The notes under the pieces were generated by a model. That model saw only the letters and a program-made list of their open reading frames with translations. It did no database searches and was not told the origin of the DNA. This document shows positions 14,017 through 24,254 of a stretch of DNA of 24,254 bases, one piece after another. The position numbers were made by a program, and so were the translations under genes. The stretch covers positions 1 through 24,254 of the IMG/VR virus record IMGVR_UViG_3300036791_000162. The stretch is one strand, 5' to 3'. This DNA comes from a virus. Positions within the stretch are counted from its first letter, which is position 1; every line of letters starts with the position of its first letter.

Positions 14017-16335
14017 TTACACCGTCGCCTCTATCCCCAACTCCACTAGTGTGAACGGACCTGGCGTGTCTTTTATGATCGCCACTCGAGCATCCCACGA
14101 TAGACCCAACGGGAAATAATCATAGGTTTGCTCGCGCATCGGCGCCGGCTGTGTTGCGTCGTCGCCCATGTTGTAGGCCGTGATCCGGCGGATATTCATG
14201 ATCGTGCCGAGAGCCGGCGACGTTGGCGTAAGCGGACCACCGAACAGCCGCGCAAACACAAAGCCGGTGTTGTGAACTGTCCAGGCTGTTACCCGAACAG
14301 CGCGTCGCTTCACCATGCGTTGCTTCCTGGCTTCGCCGGCCGGCGCCATCGGAACGAACGGCTCGAGCACAGATGTCCAAGCTTGACCGGCCATGAGATT
14401 CGGACTGTTCAGATTCTCGCCGCCAGTAAATTGCGGGACAATGAATCCATTGGCGTCAATCTGATAGGTGCCCATGAATACAGTGCCGTTATCAATCAGC
14501 GTCACCGTAACTCCCGGCATAAACCACAGCGGACCCTTGCCACCAGGCGGCGCAAGTACGGCCGGCGGATTGTTGACCGGAAGGTTACAATCGAGGATCG
14601 CAAACGAATCGAGCGTCTCGACCACGGACACGGGTCCGGATCCACCCGCCACGTTGTAGACATTCGTAAAGAGGACTTCCGATAGACGCGCGGAGACCCA
14701 ACTAGGTTTTCCTGCCCCCGTCCAAGGAATCCACCCGGCATTCCCGACAAGCAACCCGTTCTGCAATCTGTAGAAGCCGACAACAATAGAGCCATCGGCA
14801 TTGAGAATGTAGGCGTAGCGTTCCGGAAAGAAACTATCGGCAGTAGGCGCGGCGATGCAAACGGGCCCGGTGAATAAGTGCGTTGCCAGGTCGCCCACTT
14901 CCCGCGTCTCGTATGGCCGGCTATAGGATCCCGTCGCCGCAACCACCATCGGCCGCAGATTGCCGGCGTTGATAAAAATGAGCTCCTCTTGCAGCAATCT
15001 CGGTTGCACGTTTGCACAACCGTCGCGGCTTATTAGATTGAAGGCAACGCTCCCAGGCTTGAGCGGATTGTTGATTGAGATAGGAACGTAATAGATCCCG
15101 ATTGTCGTAAATATATATTCGTTGCCTTCTGCCCCAGGCTCAACGTAGAGCACTTGCGCCTTACCGGGGGCGAGCTCAAACATTCCACCGTCTGCCGTGG
15201 GAATTTGTTGATCGACATAAAGATCAAAAGGCGAGCCGATAGCACTCCAAGAAATCCCGTTCGGGACTGAGGGAAAATTGTAGAAGATGACCCGGTTCTG
15301 ATCGACGCGAACGCCCGAGGGCCAGCCCCGGAAATCGTTCATTACTTCATCGTCCCACAGCGAGATAGCTTGTGGAGGGAGTCCATTCGGGAGACTTGTG
15401 ATCTGCACCGCGCCATAGGGGCCGACGAGTAGTTCAGGCGCACCAAACACACCCGGGATACCCGTTCCGAAAAATTTCCCAGGAACAATATATTGAACCT
15501 CTATCTCAACAGGCGCGGCCCCCTGTGTCGGCGGGCTAGTGCCCCCGCCCGAGTAAATTAAATTGGTAACGATTCCTTTCGCGCCCGACGTGGCACCGAT
15601 AACAAGGTCGCCAACTTGAATTGAACCGCTGACAGCGCCAATCCCCATCAACCACGCATCGAGTATTTTTTGCTGTATGTTTCCGACTAGATGTGTTGGA
15701 TCCGTGTAGCCGGTAATCAGAATTTGAGCGTCAACATAACGCATCAGGGTTCCGACCATGCCGGGAACAGCAATTGGCGAGGAAAACGTAAGTGTAGCGC
15801 CGGCACCGATTGCGGCTGTCGAAGGCTGCATTGTTACGCTTTTAGGCGAGATCCGATAGAACGGCACTCGCGATTGTCCTAAACCGGCGATTGTCGCGAC
15901 GTAGTTTGCAAGTGACCATGCGGAAACGCCATCCCAAGTTAAGACTTGTGGCCGCGATCCCGGGAAACAGATATAGACGTTCAACAAATAAACGTCCCAA
16001 ACGACTTGTTGACAGGTCGCCACCGTCCAAGGCATCCCGCTCGCTGTGAATACATTGGCGCCGGCAGAATTAAATACGTTGAGCGTCCCACCATCAAAAT
16101 TGAGATAGAAAACGCTTCCCGGCTTCATCAACACGGCTTCGGTTCGGCCCGTCGCCAAAAACTTCGCGGTTTTGCCCGGTCGATTGTTGAGCACTCGAGT
16201 CGCGAGGATCCGATAATTGCTCATCTGCCGCGCGCCACCAAGGAACGGCTTTGCATCGTCCGCGCGCTTGGCGCCGACATCGAGCTCACCGCTCGTAAAA
16301 TCCCGTTGTGCTCCGGTGATTTTCGGTCGCGCCAT
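14017..16335 (-). CDS. Tail nozzle protein (T7 gp12 / P22 gp10-like)
   Basis: A 772-residue, beta-rich protein. The N-terminus has the signature of this family: RDFTSGELDV near residues 11-20, then a G-A-R-x-M-x-N-Y-R-I-x-x-x-R-V-L-N-N-R-P-G element (~34-54). The middle contains WDDEVMNDFRGWPSGVRVDQNR, GISWSAIGSPFDLY and FTTIGIYYVPI, typical of beta-propeller repeats in nozzle proteins. The protein forms the hexameric tip of the short tail below the adaptor. It follows the adaptor gene by six bases and precedes the ejection proteins, the usual podovirus order. A Gly-rich insert at ~255-280 (VGDLVIGATSGAKGIVTN) may be a small added domain. Confidence 0.87.
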   Translation of the reverse strand: MARPKITGAQRDFTSGELDVGAKRADDAKPFLGGARQMSNYRILATRVLNNRPGKTAKFLATGRTEAVLMKPGSVFYLNFDGGTLNVFNSAGANVFTASGMPWTVATCQQVVWDVYLLNVYICFPGSRPQVLTWDGVSAWSLANYVATIAGLGQSRVPFYRISPKSVTMQPSTAAIGAGATLTFSSPIAVPGMVGTLMRYVDAQILITGYTDPTHLVGNIQQKILDAWLMGIGAVSGSIQVGDLVIGATSGAKGIVTNLIYSGGGTSPPTQGAAPVEIEVQYIVPGKFFGTGIPGVFGAPELLVGPYGAVQITSLPNGLPPQAISLWDDEVMNDFRGWPSGVRVDQNRVIFYNFPSVPNGISWSAIGSPFDLYVDQQIPTADGGMFELAPGKAQVLYVEPGAEGNEYIFTTIGIYYVPISINNPLKPGSVAFNLISRDGCANVQPRLLQEELIFINAGNLRPMVVAATGSYSRPYETREVGDLATHLFTGPVCIAAPTADSFFPERYAYILNADGSIVVGFYRLQNGLLVGNAGWIPWTGAGKPSWVSARLSEVLFTNVYNVAGGSGPVSVVETLDSFAILDCNLPVNNPPAVLAPPGGKGPLWFMPGVTVTLIDNGTVFMGTYQIDANGFIVPQFTGGENLNSPNLMAGQAWTSVLEPFVPMAPAGEARKQRMVKRRAVRVTAWTVHNTGFVFARLFGGPLTPTSPALGTIMNIRRITAYNMGDDATQPAPMREQTYDYFPLGLSWDARVAIIKDTPGPFTLVELGIEATV

Positions 16336-16341
16336 ATCTCA

Positions 16342-17040
16342 TCACCCCGGCGATCCGGTTCCGCCCCATCCACTCGGAAGCTGCGGCCACGGCCGGCGCA
16401 CGCGCCGCGCTGCAAAGAGCCGACTATTCCACATCGAGCGTTTCGGGGTTTCTTGATCGGCGCGTGTCTTTGCCTCCTGCAGAACGCCAACCCCGATTTT
16501 CCACATAGCCGCGGCTTCGGTGACATCGTACATCAGCGAGCGATAGATCCCGCTCAATGTGAAAAACATCAGCGCAGTTATGAAGGTTCTCGCCATGCGA
16601 TCGGTTGTCGGACTTTGATCCCCGCCAGGATCCGAGGAAACATATTGAATTTGAACAACCCCGGGTGTGGCGCCGGACGGTGCCGGAAAGAATAGGCTCG
16701 AGCCAGAGATCGCGCGTACCTCGAGGTGATTGCCGACAATCTTGTAGATGACCGGCGCATCATCGAGCCGCATCCAAATGAGGTGAACGCAATCCGGCGG
16801 CTTCGGATAAGCCGTATCGAATTGCCTATCTTCGGGAGGCGTCGTCAGCGGTTGAAGGGTTTGGATCTTGGTCACCGCCGCCCAATTATGATTGTCGAGC
16901 ATGAACTCGAGGGCAATCTCGTATGCGCGACTCGCGGCGTTCCAATTATCTGATCCGTCGTCCGCGGTGAACACCTCATCAATGCCCGCGCTAACGAGCG
17001 CATCGTTGATAACGTCGAGTTTTTGAACCGGCCATGTCAT
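16342..17040 (-). CDS. Tail adaptor protein (T7 gp11-like, tail tubular protein A)
   Basis: A 232-residue protein. The ATG at 17040 (MTWPVQKLDVINDALVSAG) is preferred to the TTG at 17055, which overlaps the adhesin gene; GAGG lies about ten bases before the ATG. The N-terminal helices (INDALVSAGI near 11-20, ASRAYEIALEFMLDNHNW near 36-53) and the central beta part (YPKPPDCVHLIWMRLDD, then YKIVGNHLEV) follow the podovirus adaptor pattern. A C-terminal helix bundle (~150-205) is followed by a basic Arg/Pro tail. It joins the portal to the nozzle in the short tail. The neighbouring nozzle gene supports the call. Confidence 0.85.
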   Translation of the reverse strand: MTWPVQKLDVINDALVSAGIDEVFTADDGSDNWNAASRAYEIALEFMLDNHNWAAVTKIQTLQPLTTPPEDRQFDTAYPKPPDCVHLIWMRLDDAPVIYKIVGNHLEVRAISGSSLFFPAPSGATPGVVQIQYVSSDPGGDQSPTTDRMARTFITALMFFTLSGIYRSLMYDVTEAAAMWKIGVGVLQEAKTRADQETPKRSMWNSRLFAARRVRRPWPQLPSGWGGTGSPG

Positions 17041-17041
17041 G

Positions 17042-17758
17042 TCACAGTTCCTCAATTATCCCGATGCCGGTGCCGCCCGGTCCCGCAGGAGCAAAGCCAG
17101 AGCCGTCAGTGCTTCCACCGCCACCGCCCGTATTGACGACCCCGGCGCCACCACCCTGATTCTGGCTATATGGAGCGCCGTAACCTCCGCCGCCTTTGCC
17201 GCCCGTCGTGTTTGATGTAGTTTGCCCGTCGCCACCACCGCCTGCATAATAGTTGTTGTCGATCGGACAGAGCGAACCGTCCCCACCGTTGTGGGTAGTA
17301 CCGGGATTTATCCCCTGCGGACCACCGCCGCCACCACCGGCAACGCCACCATTAGCACCTTGGGAACCAACGCCGCCGGTCGCCCCGCCGCCGCCTGCAC
17401 CGCCATTTCCACCAGCGCCAGTATAGACACCAAAACCGCCGCCATTAGCCGTCAGACCCAATGCCGTCGTGTTGCCTCCAGCCGTGCCGTTTCCGCTGTA
17501 TCCGGGGCTAGTGCCGCCCGCTCCGATCGCCACCGCGTTCACGCCATTAGCCAGCGTGCCGCTCGATGCGATCAGCATTCCGCCGCCGCCGCCTGCGCCT
17601 GCTTGGCCGCCTGCGCCTGCCGCGCCACCACCGGCGACCAGACAGTAGCGAACTGGCCGTGCGCTTGGGCAGGTGATGTTGCCTGAGGCGAGCATCGTGT
17701 AGCGATACTTGAGGCTCGGTTGAAGAACGGCGGTGTTGCCAGTCCCGGTGACGGTGCA
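17042..17758 (-). repeat. Second copy of the Gly-rich adhesin unit
   Basis: This region encodes residues 298-535 of the adhesin. It aligns with residues 41-297 through CTVTGTGNT, ITCP, Y-C and a late Cys-Pro-(V/I)-D element. The copies differ in the length of the Gly-rich array, so the duplication is not very recent. Confidence 0.7.
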
Positions 17759-18649
17759 AGGCGTCTCTGGCGTTCCGCCAGTCTGCAACATCACCCTGCC
17801 GCTGCCGCCGGAGTTAGCCGTGACGGTTTGACCGTTGTTGCCGCCTGCGCCACCACCCGTATTTGCTGTTCCTGGGGTTGCTACTGTACTAGTTGATCCG
17901 ACGCCACCATTCCCACCGCCCTGTGTTCCAAGTGCAGGCGTTGGACCTGAGTAAGACCCCCCTCCTCCACCACCGGCATAGGCCACGCCATCGACCGGAC
18001 ATGTCTGACCAATACCACCGGGCGCACCCATCCCCCCGGAAGGAACAACCCCACCTAGACCACCAGCCCCACCGCCACCGCCACCCGCATAACCCACTAT
18101 CGGGTTATCACCGCCTTTGTTGCCTTGGCCCGCAGTGCCCGCACCGCCGACATAAGTGTTGGTGGCATCCGCGCCCGCGCCGCCGCCTGACCCGCCAGCC
18201 GCGCCATTAGTGGCGGGGCCGCCGTAGCCGCCGCCGGTTGCCGTTTTGCCAATCGCAACGGAATTTCCGCCGTTCACCGATCCGGTGCCGCCGGCCCCGA
18301 CCGTGATAGTGTTCGCGCCCAGGGCGAGCGTGCCGTAGCCAAACAACATGCCACCCGCGCCGCCACCCCCGGCATAGGCGCTCCCAGCGGCGCCGCCGCC
18401 GCCCGCGATGATGCAGTAGACCGTGTTAGGGATCGCGACCGGACATGTGATCGTCCCGCTTACGATGAACTTGTAGTTGACGAGTGAGCCAACAATCGTG
18501 ACGGTGTTGCCGGTGCCGGTAACGGTGCATGCGACGACCCCCCCGCCGCCAGGACCAACGCCAATCGCTACGAATGTGCCAGGGAGTTGCGCATAGATGC
18601 TCCATGCGCTTGAAAGCAAGAATGCTGCGGAAAGTAGCCAGCGCTTCAT
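17042..18649 (-). CDS. Exported-looking polyglycine-rich adhesin with internal duplication
   Basis: A 535-residue protein. The ATG at 18649 overlaps the fibre-gene stop (ATGA). Residues 1-20 look like a Sec signal peptide (K2, R3, a hydrophobic core, Ala20 before Gln21). The rest is two related copies (~41-297 and ~298-535). Each begins C-T-V-T-G-T-G-N-T, runs through a short beta region with two more cysteines, then a long Gly-rich array. Four cysteines occupy matching places in each copy: 41, 69, 79, 217 and 298, 327, 336, 461. The Gly arrays resemble polyglycine-II bundles of phage receptor-binding adhesins such as T4-like gp38. Receptor binding is therefore the likely job. A signal peptide on a virion protein is unexpected. 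Confidence 0.8.
   Translation of the reverse strand: MKRWLLSAAFLLSSAWSIYAQLPGTFVAIGVGPGGGGVVACTVTGTGNTVTIVGSLVNYKFIVSGTITCPVAIPNTVYCIIAGGGGAAGSAYAGGGGAGGMLFGYGTLALGANTITVGAGGTGSVNGGNSVAIGKTATGGGYGGPATNGAAGGSGGGAGADATNTYVGGAGTAGQGNKGGDNPIVGYAGGGGGGAGGLGGVVPSGGMGAPGGIGQTCPVDGVAYAGGGGGGSYSGPTPALGTQGGGNGGVGSTSTVATPGTANTGGGAGGNNGQTVTANSGGSGRVMLQTGGTPETPCTVTGTGNTAVLQPSLKYRYTMLASGNITCPSARPVRYCLVAGGGAAGAGGQAGAGGGGGMLIASSGTLANGVNAVAIGAGGTSPGYSGNGTAGGNTTALGLTANGGGFGVYTGAGGNGGAGGGGATGGVGSQGANGGVAGGGGGGPQGINPGTTHNGGDGSLCPIDNNYYAGGGGDGQTTSNTTGGKGGGGYGAPYSQNQGGGAGVVNTGGGGGSTDGSGFAPAGPGGTGIGIIEEL
17759..18529 (-). repeat. First copy of the Gly-rich adhesin unit
   Basis: This region encodes residues 41-297. 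It is the partner of the unit at 17042-17758 and shares the same order of motifs and four equivalent cysteines. Confidence 0.7.
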
Positions 18650-21165
18650 TTCACATCCTTGAGCAATGTGCCGCCAACGCAGTAATTGGTCGCGGTGCAT
18701 TGATAGGAAACAATGTCAACGGCATTCGCCGCCGTGCTTAAGATGTAGTTGCACCCGCCCGCACATTTCAAAAATGTGCTGAACGTCGCGGGGATCGTGA
18801 ACGGGCCGCCGGTCGCCGGTTGAATAAATTTGATGAGCCCTGCTTGTCCCGCCTTGAAGTTGTACATGTTGATCGTGGTGATGTTGGCGGAGAGCGTGAC
18901 GGCCCCGTTGAGGATCGTTGACATGTCGAGGTTCAGGTTCGCGCCCGCCTGAGTCGGTGCGGACTCGCCAGTGAACACCTGATCCGCAATTAGAACCTTA
19001 TTAGTTGTGCCGGCCCGAAAATTGGCAGCGGTTGCAGTATCAACGGCAATGGTCCCGCCGCCGGCCACAGCCGGACCTCCCGTAAGTGCAACTCCGGTAT
19101 TGATAAAGCCGGACGCCAGCCGCGCGTTTGGCAGCGTCCCGCTGGTGATGTTGCTGGCGTTGGTCGTATCGGTCGTTGCAGAAGGAGCCAGCACAGGCGT
19201 GCCGGTCAGATCGTTATAGGCACCACTGGTCGCAACCGTCGCAAAACCTACGCCGCTCGTTTTTGTGCAAGTAATGGCCCCCGCCGTTGTGATTGTGCAA
19301 TCGCCGCCCATAGTAAAGCCGCCGAATGCACCAGAGCTATTGAATTGAATTTGGCCGTTCGTTCCGCCCGGTGCGCCGCATCCTTTTCCCGCATCAACAA
19401 TGTTGCCGGCGGCATCAAACTGCGCGCAATTCCCGTTGGTGAGAGCGCCGGACGTTGATGCAATGTTTGCTGTTCGGTTCGGCCAAGTCAGAGTGCCACT
19501 AAGCGTTACGCCGGCAGGGGGTTGAATCGTGATCGTGCCGCCGGTAACGCTGGCATAGCTGGCTATGCCCGTAGTCTGACCGGGAACGCCTATGGTTGCA
19601 TGGCCGGCGTTGACGGTTAGATTCGGATCGCCTTGTACTGCCGTCCCGGCATTTGGATAGAAGGCAATCGCGCCAGCCGTCCCGGCGCCGACTGTTCCGC
19701 TGCCGCCGCTGCCGCCGCCGCAAGGTGCTCCCGCATCGGAAAGATTGTGGTTTGCATCTATAGTGACGCAATTTCCAATCGCCATTGCCGTGTTGGTGTA
19801 CGGAATAATGCCCGTCGTGCCCAACGTGCCGGCGATGGTGACGCCATTGAGCAAAAATGTATTGTTCGCCGTATCGAAGGTTTTGTTGGTCAGAGTTTGC
19901 GCTTCGATCGTTCCGACTACAATTCCGCTCGCCGGAAAGGCAATAGTCGTCCCGCTCTTTTGGAATGTGCCGGTGACATTAAGCGTCCCGCTTGCGGTGT
20001 CCGTGGTTGCGTTCGTATGCACAAGCGTTGGAGAGCCAGCGAATGCGCCGGCACTATTAAACTGATAGGAATTTGGTGAGCCGGCCGGAGCCGTTACAGG
20101 GATCGTGTTGCAGCCGAAACCCGAGCCGGTTGTCCATATCAGCGCATTAAGAGCGCCCGCGCATCCCGTTAAAGGCAACGCTTGCGCGCCGGACCCAAGA
20201 TTGCCGTAGACTGCATTTGTCGCAATCGCCGGCATCTGCGCAAAGCCGACTTGTCCGGAAATCTGCCCGAATGAATAGTCATTAGCTGCAGGCGTAACGG
20301 GCCCGGTTCGCGTGTTAAAACTTGTGACGCTGGTGCTGCACCCAAAGCCGACGCCGGCCGCCCAAGTCAGAGCGTTGCCGGTCGCGCAAGGTGGCACCGC
20401 AATCGCAGCCGCACCGGATCCGAGATTGCCATAGAGGTTGTTTGTGGCAATCGGCGGCATCTGCCCGAGAGCCACATTGCCGCCAATTTGCGAAAAGCTG
20501 TAATCGTTAGCTGCGGCTACTACCCCGCCGATACGGCCAAAAACGCTAGTGACAAGCGTGCCGCCGCCGCCGCCGACGACAGGGCTATACATGATGACGT
20601 TGGTGCCGGTTGAATCGAACCCGACAACACTGCCCATCCGATTCGCGGCCGGCGGCATCAACCCAATCGATTCACCTGGCAAGCCGAGAAGCGCACGCCC
20701 GCTAATATCGTTCAGCTTGTCCCAGGTCTCGCGGTTCTGTGAGACGAGATCCGTAATCGCGACGTTGAGATCGCGCGCCGGGACGCCCTTGTTCTCCGCG
20801 AACTGAGAGACACGGCGCGGGCGCCGCGCGCCTACGACAATGACCGTCCCGGTTCGCGGATTGGTGAACGTAACTTGCGCATTCGTAATCGGCCGCGCGA
20901 TGCTATTGAGCGAACCCGAGGGCGAGGTGAGCGTCCAATTCCCGCTTTGCGGCGTCAAAACATTGTTGACGAATACCTCGATCCAATTTTGATAGTCGGT
21001 GCCATCACCGTAAATCGCGAACGGTATCGAGACGGGCCCGGTCGAATTGTTGAGGGTGACGGTCGCTATGCGAGGCGCGTCCGGCAGACCGGGAACCGGC
21101 GCCGGCTGTGCCATCGCAAGACCAGCCGAGAACAGGAAAGCGAGGAGAGCCGCGAAGATCCTCAT
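18646..21165 (-). CDS. Tail fibre protein with T7-type N-terminal adaptor and signal-peptide-like start
   Basis: An 839-residue protein. I chose the ATG at 21165 because GAGG lies 8 bases upstream and a terminator lies just before it; a longer frame from 21300 would cross that terminator. Residues 1-19 (MRIFAALLAFLFSAGLAMA before Gln20) look like a Sec signal peptide. Residues ~33-150 follow the N-terminal attachment domain of T7 gp17-like fibres: I-P-F-A-I-Y-G-D-x-x-D-Y-Q, VFVNNVL, W-T-L-T-S-P-S-G, VTFTNP, GTVIVVGARRPRR, then a helix. The shaft has two ~73-residue repeats (209-355) and later segments such as QTLTNKTFD. The fourteen cysteines come in pairs (260/276, 335/352, 466/482, 580/596, 623/633, 801/805, 823/829). 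It should bind the tail and recognise the host. Confidence 0.85.
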   Translation of the reverse strand: MRIFAALLAFLFSAGLAMAQPAPVPGLPDAPRIATVTLNNSTGPVSIPFAIYGDGTDYQNWIEVFVNNVLTPQSGNWTLTSPSGSLNSIARPITNAQVTFTNPRTGTVIVVGARRPRRVSQFAENKGVPARDLNVAITDLVSQNRETWDKLNDISGRALLGLPGESIGLMPPAANRMGSVVGFDSTGTNVIMYSPVVGGGGGTLVTSVFGRIGGVVAAANDYSFSQIGGNVALGQMPPIATNNLYGNLGSGAAAIAVPPCATGNALTWAAGVGFGCSTSVTSFNTRTGPVTPAANDYSFGQISGQVGFAQMPAIATNAVYGNLGSGAQALPLTGCAGALNALIWTTGSGFGCNTIPVTAPAGSPNSYQFNSAGAFAGSPTLVHTNATTDTASGTLNVTGTFQKSGTTIAFPASGIVVGTIEAQTLTNKTFDTANNTFLLNGVTIAGTLGTTGIIPYTNTAMAIGNCVTIDANHNLSDAGAPCGGGSGGSGTVGAGTAGAIAFYPNAGTAVQGDPNLTVNAGHATIGVPGQTTGIASYASVTGGTITIQPPAGVTLSGTLTWPNRTANIASTSGALTNGNCAQFDAAGNIVDAGKGCGAPGGTNGQIQFNSSGAFGGFTMGGDCTITTAGAITCTKTSGVGFATVATSGAYNDLTGTPVLAPSATTDTTNASNITSGTLPNARLASGFINTGVALTGGPAVAGGGTIAVDTATAANFRAGTTNKVLIADQVFTGESAPTQAGANLNLDMSTILNGAVTLSANITTINMYNFKAGQAGLIKFIQPATGGPFTIPATFSTFLKCAGGCNYILSTAANAVDIVSYQCTATNYCVGGTLLKDVK
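20101..20541 (-). repeat. Two tandem ~73-residue repeats in the fibre shaft
   Basis: Residues 209-282 and 283-355 of the fibre share AANDYSF-x-Q-I, Q-M-P-x-I-A-T-N, YGNLGSGA and a Cys-x16-Cys element ending in GFGC. They form an internal duplication of a shaft module. Confidence 0.75.
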
Positions 21166-21177
21166 TGGCGCGTCCTC

Positions 21178-21210
21178 AAAAAGATGGCCGCAAGGGCGAA
21201 CCCTGCGGCC
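21178..21210 (-). terminator. Intrinsic terminator between the head genes and the fibre genes
   Basis: On the minus strand GGCCGCA-GGG, a TTCG tetraloop, CCC, one bulged T and TGCGGCC form a 10-bp GC-rich stem, followed by ATCTTTTT. This is a textbook Rho-independent terminator. It lies 23 bases after the stop of the 168-residue gene and just before the fibre gene. Read-through would set a lower level of fibre and tail genes relative to capsid. Confidence 0.85.
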
Positions 21211-24223: not shown

Positions 24224-24254
24224 CGCACCGGACTTTCCCGAGTCGAGGCAGAGC

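Follow-up and report, generated by a model that had tools for sequence, protein, structure and literature searches.

Predicted signal peptides and paired cysteines in a family of podovirus tail fibres, and a possible periplasmic route to the virion

Virions of tailed phages are taught as cytoplasmic assemblies. The coat proteins of filamentous phages are virion proteins with Sec signal peptides, and gp38 of T-even-type phages is a glycine-rich tip adhesin. Exported late phage proteins are already known for lysis (PMC6116005), and the long tail fibres of T4 can attach to fibreless particles (PMC3004832). The MAT fibres of Bdellovibrio carry a conserved beta-rich domain of ~130 aa after a signal peptide (PMC10769870), and even numbers of cysteines are favoured by exported proteins (PMC7678975). 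In the open-access literature that we searched, no paper described a tailed-phage tail fibre with a signal peptide, and none gave a precedent for the docking of a fibre after export.

The locus and its relatives

The window, by which we mean the whole stretch of 24,254 bases of an IMG/VR virus record that was analysed, carries a podovirus block on its minus strand, with genes for a scaffold/protease-like protein, the major capsid protein (phrog_212), two proteins without assignment, a tail fibre, an adhesin, tubular A, tubular B and an internal virion protein (phrog_418) (Table 1). The fibre ATG at 21165 is preceded by GAGGA at 21177-21173, and the adhesin ATG at 18649, preceded by AAGGA, overlaps the fibre stop codon (ATGA). 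A hairpin followed by a T-run, similar to an intrinsic terminator, lies just before the fibre start (21178-21210, minus strand) and is also present in the relative L002. The 10-mer GGTGCGTTGC, found in the window at 24229 (minus strand) and 2834 (plus strand), occurs at 93 distinct places in the fetched loci, often a few tens of bases 5' of gene starts and in 93/93 contexts on the coding strand of late genes; it is likely to be a promoter or leader element specific to this group.

Table 1 Features of the fibre-adhesin locus in the window.
Feature	Coordinates	Strand	Remarks
Tail-fibre gene	18646..21165	-	839 aa precursor, ATG 21165; relatives L002-L012, L093-L151
Fibre signal peptide, MRIFAALLAFLFSAGLAMA↓Q	21109..21165	-	19 aa; predicted SPase I site
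Fibre T7 gp17-type N-terminal tail-anchor domain	20695..21096	-	mature residues ~5-138; AlphaFold2, PDB folds, hhalign
Fibre Cys pair 241/257 (mature numbering)	20338..20388	-	spacing 16
Fibre Cys pair 316/333 (mature numbering)	20110..20163	-	spacing 17
Fibre Cys pair 447/463 (mature numbering)	19720..19770	-	spacing 16
Fibre Cys pair 561/577 (mature numbering)	19378..19428	-	spacing 16
Fibre Cys pair 604/614 (mature numbering)	19267..19299	-	spacing 10
Fibre Cys pair 782/786 (mature numbering)	18751..18765	-	kept in L002
Fibre Cys pair 804/810 (mature numbering)	18679..18699	-	kept in L002
Adhesin gene	17042..18649	-	535 aa precursor; two glycine-rich repeats (Gly_rich_2)
Adhesin signal peptide, MKRWLLSAAFLLSSAWSIYA↓Q	18590..18649	-	20 aa; kept in L002
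Tubular A homologue	16342..17040	-	phrog_394; without signal peptide (0/38 homologues); presumed part of docking site
Tubular B (nozzle) homologue	14017..16335	-	phrog_376; without signal peptide

Relatives of the fibre, collected from IMG/VR contigs and from Bradyrhizobium genomes and prophages, provided 58 distinct N-domains. One source was the 46.6 kb plasmid record of Bradyrhizobium sp. ISRA432 (NZ_CP094518.1, L150), which also encodes the nozzle protein, an integrase, an S24 peptidase and a GH19 endolysin and is either a phage-plasmid or an excised prophage. A later search of 266 Bradyrhizobium genomes added four more full fibres, all four signal-bearing; widening the search to the order yielded one distant fibre, L173, which lacks both a signal peptide and cysteines. 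In the Bradyrhizobium genome of L171, a protein keeps the signal peptide and the mature start, has lost most of the anchor domain and is joined to a pectate-lyase-like part. Among known phages, a tblastn search of INPHARED gave no match to the fibre or the adhesin; Microcystis phage Mwe-JY08 is the sole known phage with a distant N-domain, and it has no signal peptide.

The adhesin matches Gly_rich_2 (PF21722) with 60.7 bits against a cut-off of 24.3 (E 2.8e-16), and its only full homologue, in L002, keeps the signal peptide. One to three further proteins with signal peptides are encoded directly after the fibre in L011, L147, L103, L116, L125, L133, L005, L004 and L097; they are mostly unrelated to each other and their mature cysteine counts are all even. 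Three others, about 1 kb after the fibre (L128:8612-9283, L135:9204-10025 and L144:9562-10359), start with AADxPxKA... and resemble rhizobial outer-membrane proteins. In many relatives a lysis-type gene directly follows the fibre.

Signal peptides and cysteine content

The first-pass annotation had proposed Sec signal peptides on both the fibre and the adhesin, and its coordinates, starts and N-termini for the two proteins hold: both begin with Sec/SPase I-type sequences, ending AMA↓Q in the fibre and IYA↓Q in the adhesin. We scored such starts with a rule-based test requiring a basic n-region, an uncharged hydrophobic core and small residues at -3/-1. Because arbitrary long frames also pass at a rate of ~10% and shuffled sequences at 12%, the window alone is weak evidence for a signal peptide. 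Across the family the test was positive in 52/52 fibre homologues, a set that leaves aside five relatives without a signal peptide whose alignments do not let a start be placed, and in 2/2 adhesins. The remaining virion-block families in these phages, namely tubular A, tubular B, the internal proteins, the capsid, the scaffold and the two genes without assignment, together had one positive homologue (1/319). Chance resemblance is ruled out by this difference, and a lipoprotein is ruled out by the lack of a cysteine at +1 of the predicted site.

Of the 58 distinct N-domains, 53 follow a signal peptide that begins with basic residues, continues with a hydrophobic segment and ends in an AxA↓Q or similar site. 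The n-, h- and c-regions and the AxA site, by which Sec substrates of signal peptidase I are recognised in the rule-based test, are kept in homologues, and the peptides' own sequences differ widely. The five exceptions (L003, L012, L134, L140 and L151) have their first residue close to the mature start of the others, at most a few positions away. On a tree of the fibres the signal-peptide state needs three changes and L003 branches within a group that carries the peptide, which means that loss or gain of the trait can occur. The signal peptide of L128 contains SRRRFLP, which resembles a twin-arginine motif, whereas the others are of Sec type.

The same annotation had pointed to fourteen paired cysteines in the fibre, four of the pairs spaced by 16 or 17 residues, and to four cysteines per adhesin repeat; both descriptions are borne out, the mature fibre having seven adjacent pairs, with spacings of 16, 17, 16 and 16 among them, and the mature adhesin eight cysteines. 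Adjacent fibre cysteines lie closer together than under random placement. Counted from the predicted cleavage site, the cysteine number is even, ranging from 6 to 20, in 43/45 complete signal-bearing fibres (p=6e-11), the odd ones being L100 (15 Cys) and L144 (17 Cys); L165, a complete fibre found later, is also odd, with 9 Cys. Relatedness is ruled out as the cause of this parity, as 39/41 fibres are still even after similar C-termini are collapsed (p=8e-10). The controls have no such bias, with even counts in 10/33 tubular A, 13/26 tubular B and 18/70 major capsid proteins. Fibre N-domains contain two cysteines or none, and never an odd number.

Exported proteins encoded just downstream of the fibre have an even mature count in 14/14 cases. 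A lone cysteine sits inside the signal peptide in six of these 14 and in four fibres, so that in them parity holds only after cleavage. Fibres without a signal peptide contain few cysteines (0.47 per 100 aa, against 1.75 in signal-bearing fibres) and lack CxC, a comparison that rests on few independent events, since the sample comprises five such fibres and three changes on the tree. A preference for even numbers of mature cysteines is the mark of disulphide-bonded exported proteins, and we take the counts as strong indirect evidence that the mature fibres and their neighbours would be oxidised outside the cytoplasm. Comparison of the relatives confirms the predicted signal peptide and paired cysteines of the fibre as a family trait in short-tailed phages, some of them in Bradyrhizobium.

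The tail-anchor domain

A T7-type tail-attachment domain had also been assigned to the fibre in the first pass. No tail-fibre profile of Pfam or PHROGs matched the N-domain at E<0.01, and searching the PDB by sequence returned nothing useful; because the N-domain has diverged in sequence, a relationship in fold is not contradicted by the lack of a profile match. The assignment was recovered by fold comparison. Using an AlphaFold2 model of moderate confidence (pLDDT 76), the best 14 PDB entries were all N-terminal anchor domains of podovirus tail fibres (Z 8.3-11.5; next 6.7), and the matches come from portal-tail complexes, including 9efk (Z 11.5), 8ck1 (Z 11.3) and the N-terminus of T7 gp17 in 7boz (Z 10.1). 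Aligned by hhalign with nine gp17 N-domains, the fibre N-domain falls into the same register (E 4.6e-4), at a probability of only 33%.

Exactly one such N-domain is present per record (32/32). We considered whether a genome might encode a second fibre without a signal peptide; the 32 records contain none that bears this N-domain, a search that a fibre of another type would escape. The same nozzle protein was found in 15 of the 16 records tested, with signal-bearing or signal-less fibres alike. Columns of the anchor domain have a mean identity of 57% in A4, a strong conservation, and the C-terminal parts vary, some looking, by eye, like pectate-lyase-type spikes. One fibre per record, a shared nozzle protein and variable C-termini is, as far as sequences tell, the pattern of a receptor-binding fibre, and the anchor fold, the company of tubular A and B and the single copy per genome are those of the T7 gp17 type.

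Possible fates of the fibre and comparison with known systems

We propose that the newly made fibre bears a cleavable Sec signal peptide and is exported to the periplasm, where the precursor would be cut at AxA↓Q, oxidised through its paired cysteines (Dsb pathway) and trimerised, while head and tail assemble in the cytoplasm. Lysis would then merge the compartments and allow the gp17-type N-domain, freed of its signal peptide, to dock on the tubular A/B tail; the adhesin and the other exported neighbours would belong to the same periplasmic host-recognition module. We infer export and disulphides from comparative evidence that supports both well, if indirectly. We also infer docking at or after lysis, which fits best because there is one such fibre per genome with a conserved anchor fold, because orthologues without a signal peptide occur with the same tail proteins and because the C-termini vary as in receptor-binding proteins. 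The complete account, in which a receptor-binding podovirus fibre leaves the cytoplasm, gains its disulphides in the periplasm and joins the tail at or after lysis, has in our estimate a probability of roughly two in three.

The exported and oxidised fibre could instead stay with the host, as a periplasmic or surface adhesin or a receptor blocker in lysogens or infected cells, its anchor domain being a relic. The support for export and disulphides applies equally to such a role, further exported proteins are encoded nearby in some relatives, Bdellovibrio displays signal-peptide-bearing proteins that resemble phage fibres (PMC10769870) and the L171 protein retains its signal peptide and C-terminus with most of the anchor domain gone. 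Against such a role stand the strong conservation of the anchor domain, the presence of only one such fibre per record and the signal-less orthologues that take its place beside the same nozzle protein, and we consider it unlikely. The first-pass annotation had left the choice between export before assembly, attachment at or after lysis and a role such as receptor blocking: comparison supports export, disulphides and the anchor domain, and the best fit among these fates is docking at or after lysis, whereas we found no positive evidence for receptor blocking or another host-surface role.

Rather less probable still is partial export, in which slow export or internal starts would keep some of the protein in the cytoplasm for virions, the rest being exported for a different role. 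Trimers that fold quickly can resist export, and the window fibre has an in-frame ATG at residue 18 (MAQPAPV...) that would give a product without a signal peptide; yet this ATG is confined to the window and L129, which rules out an internal start as the source of signal-less fibre, and has no good ribosome-binding site 5' of it, and the even cysteine numbers argue for an oxidised functional form. That the hydrophobic N-terminus is an element of the virion rather than a signal peptide, with the cysteines reduced in the cytoplasm or oxidised only after release, seems very improbable to us: the support for export is indirect and the rule-based test has the background given above, but its outcome separates fibres from the other virion-block proteins, the AxA↓Q site is conserved and signal-less forms start near it, and cysteine parity depends on removal of the peptide.

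If export before docking is true, a receptor-binding protein that has to cross the inner membrane follows a separate maturation route, which would explain cysteine-rich fibres, render the phages dependent on the Sec and Dsb genes of the host and turn the fibres into a shared pool at lysis, exchangeable between co-infecting phages. The Bradyrhizobium lysogens make this route testable. The odds seem to us evenly balanced for the wider idea of a virion built in two compartments, with head and tail cytoplasmic and the fibre, together with one to three adhesins in some phages, disulphide-bonded in the periplasm and joined only at lysis.

Among known systems, the T7 gp17-type fibres (PDB 7boz, 7ey9, 8ck1, 9efk) are alike in the fold of the N-domain, the podovirus tail proteins, the variable C-terminus and the single copy per genome; the window fibre differs in the signal peptide that precedes its anchor domain, in its many cysteine pairs and in escaping Pfam and PHROGs profiles. 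The Bdellovibrio MAT proteins (PMC10769870), likened here by description, are also phage-fibre-like, bear a signal peptide and vary in their adhesin tips, but they are encoded by the bacterium, serve prey recognition and act outside any virion. Signal-peptide endolysins such as Lys44 of fOg44 (PMC6116005) are likewise late phage proteins exported by Sec before lysis, although Lys44 is a lysis enzyme and not a structural protein. Gly_rich_2 proteins (PF21722) and gp38-like adhesins share with the window adhesin glycine-rich repeats encoded directly after the fibre, whereas the signal peptide and the four cysteines per repeat set the latter apart. Filamentous phages assemble in the membrane without lysis, whereas the phage of the window is a tailed dsDNA podovirus.
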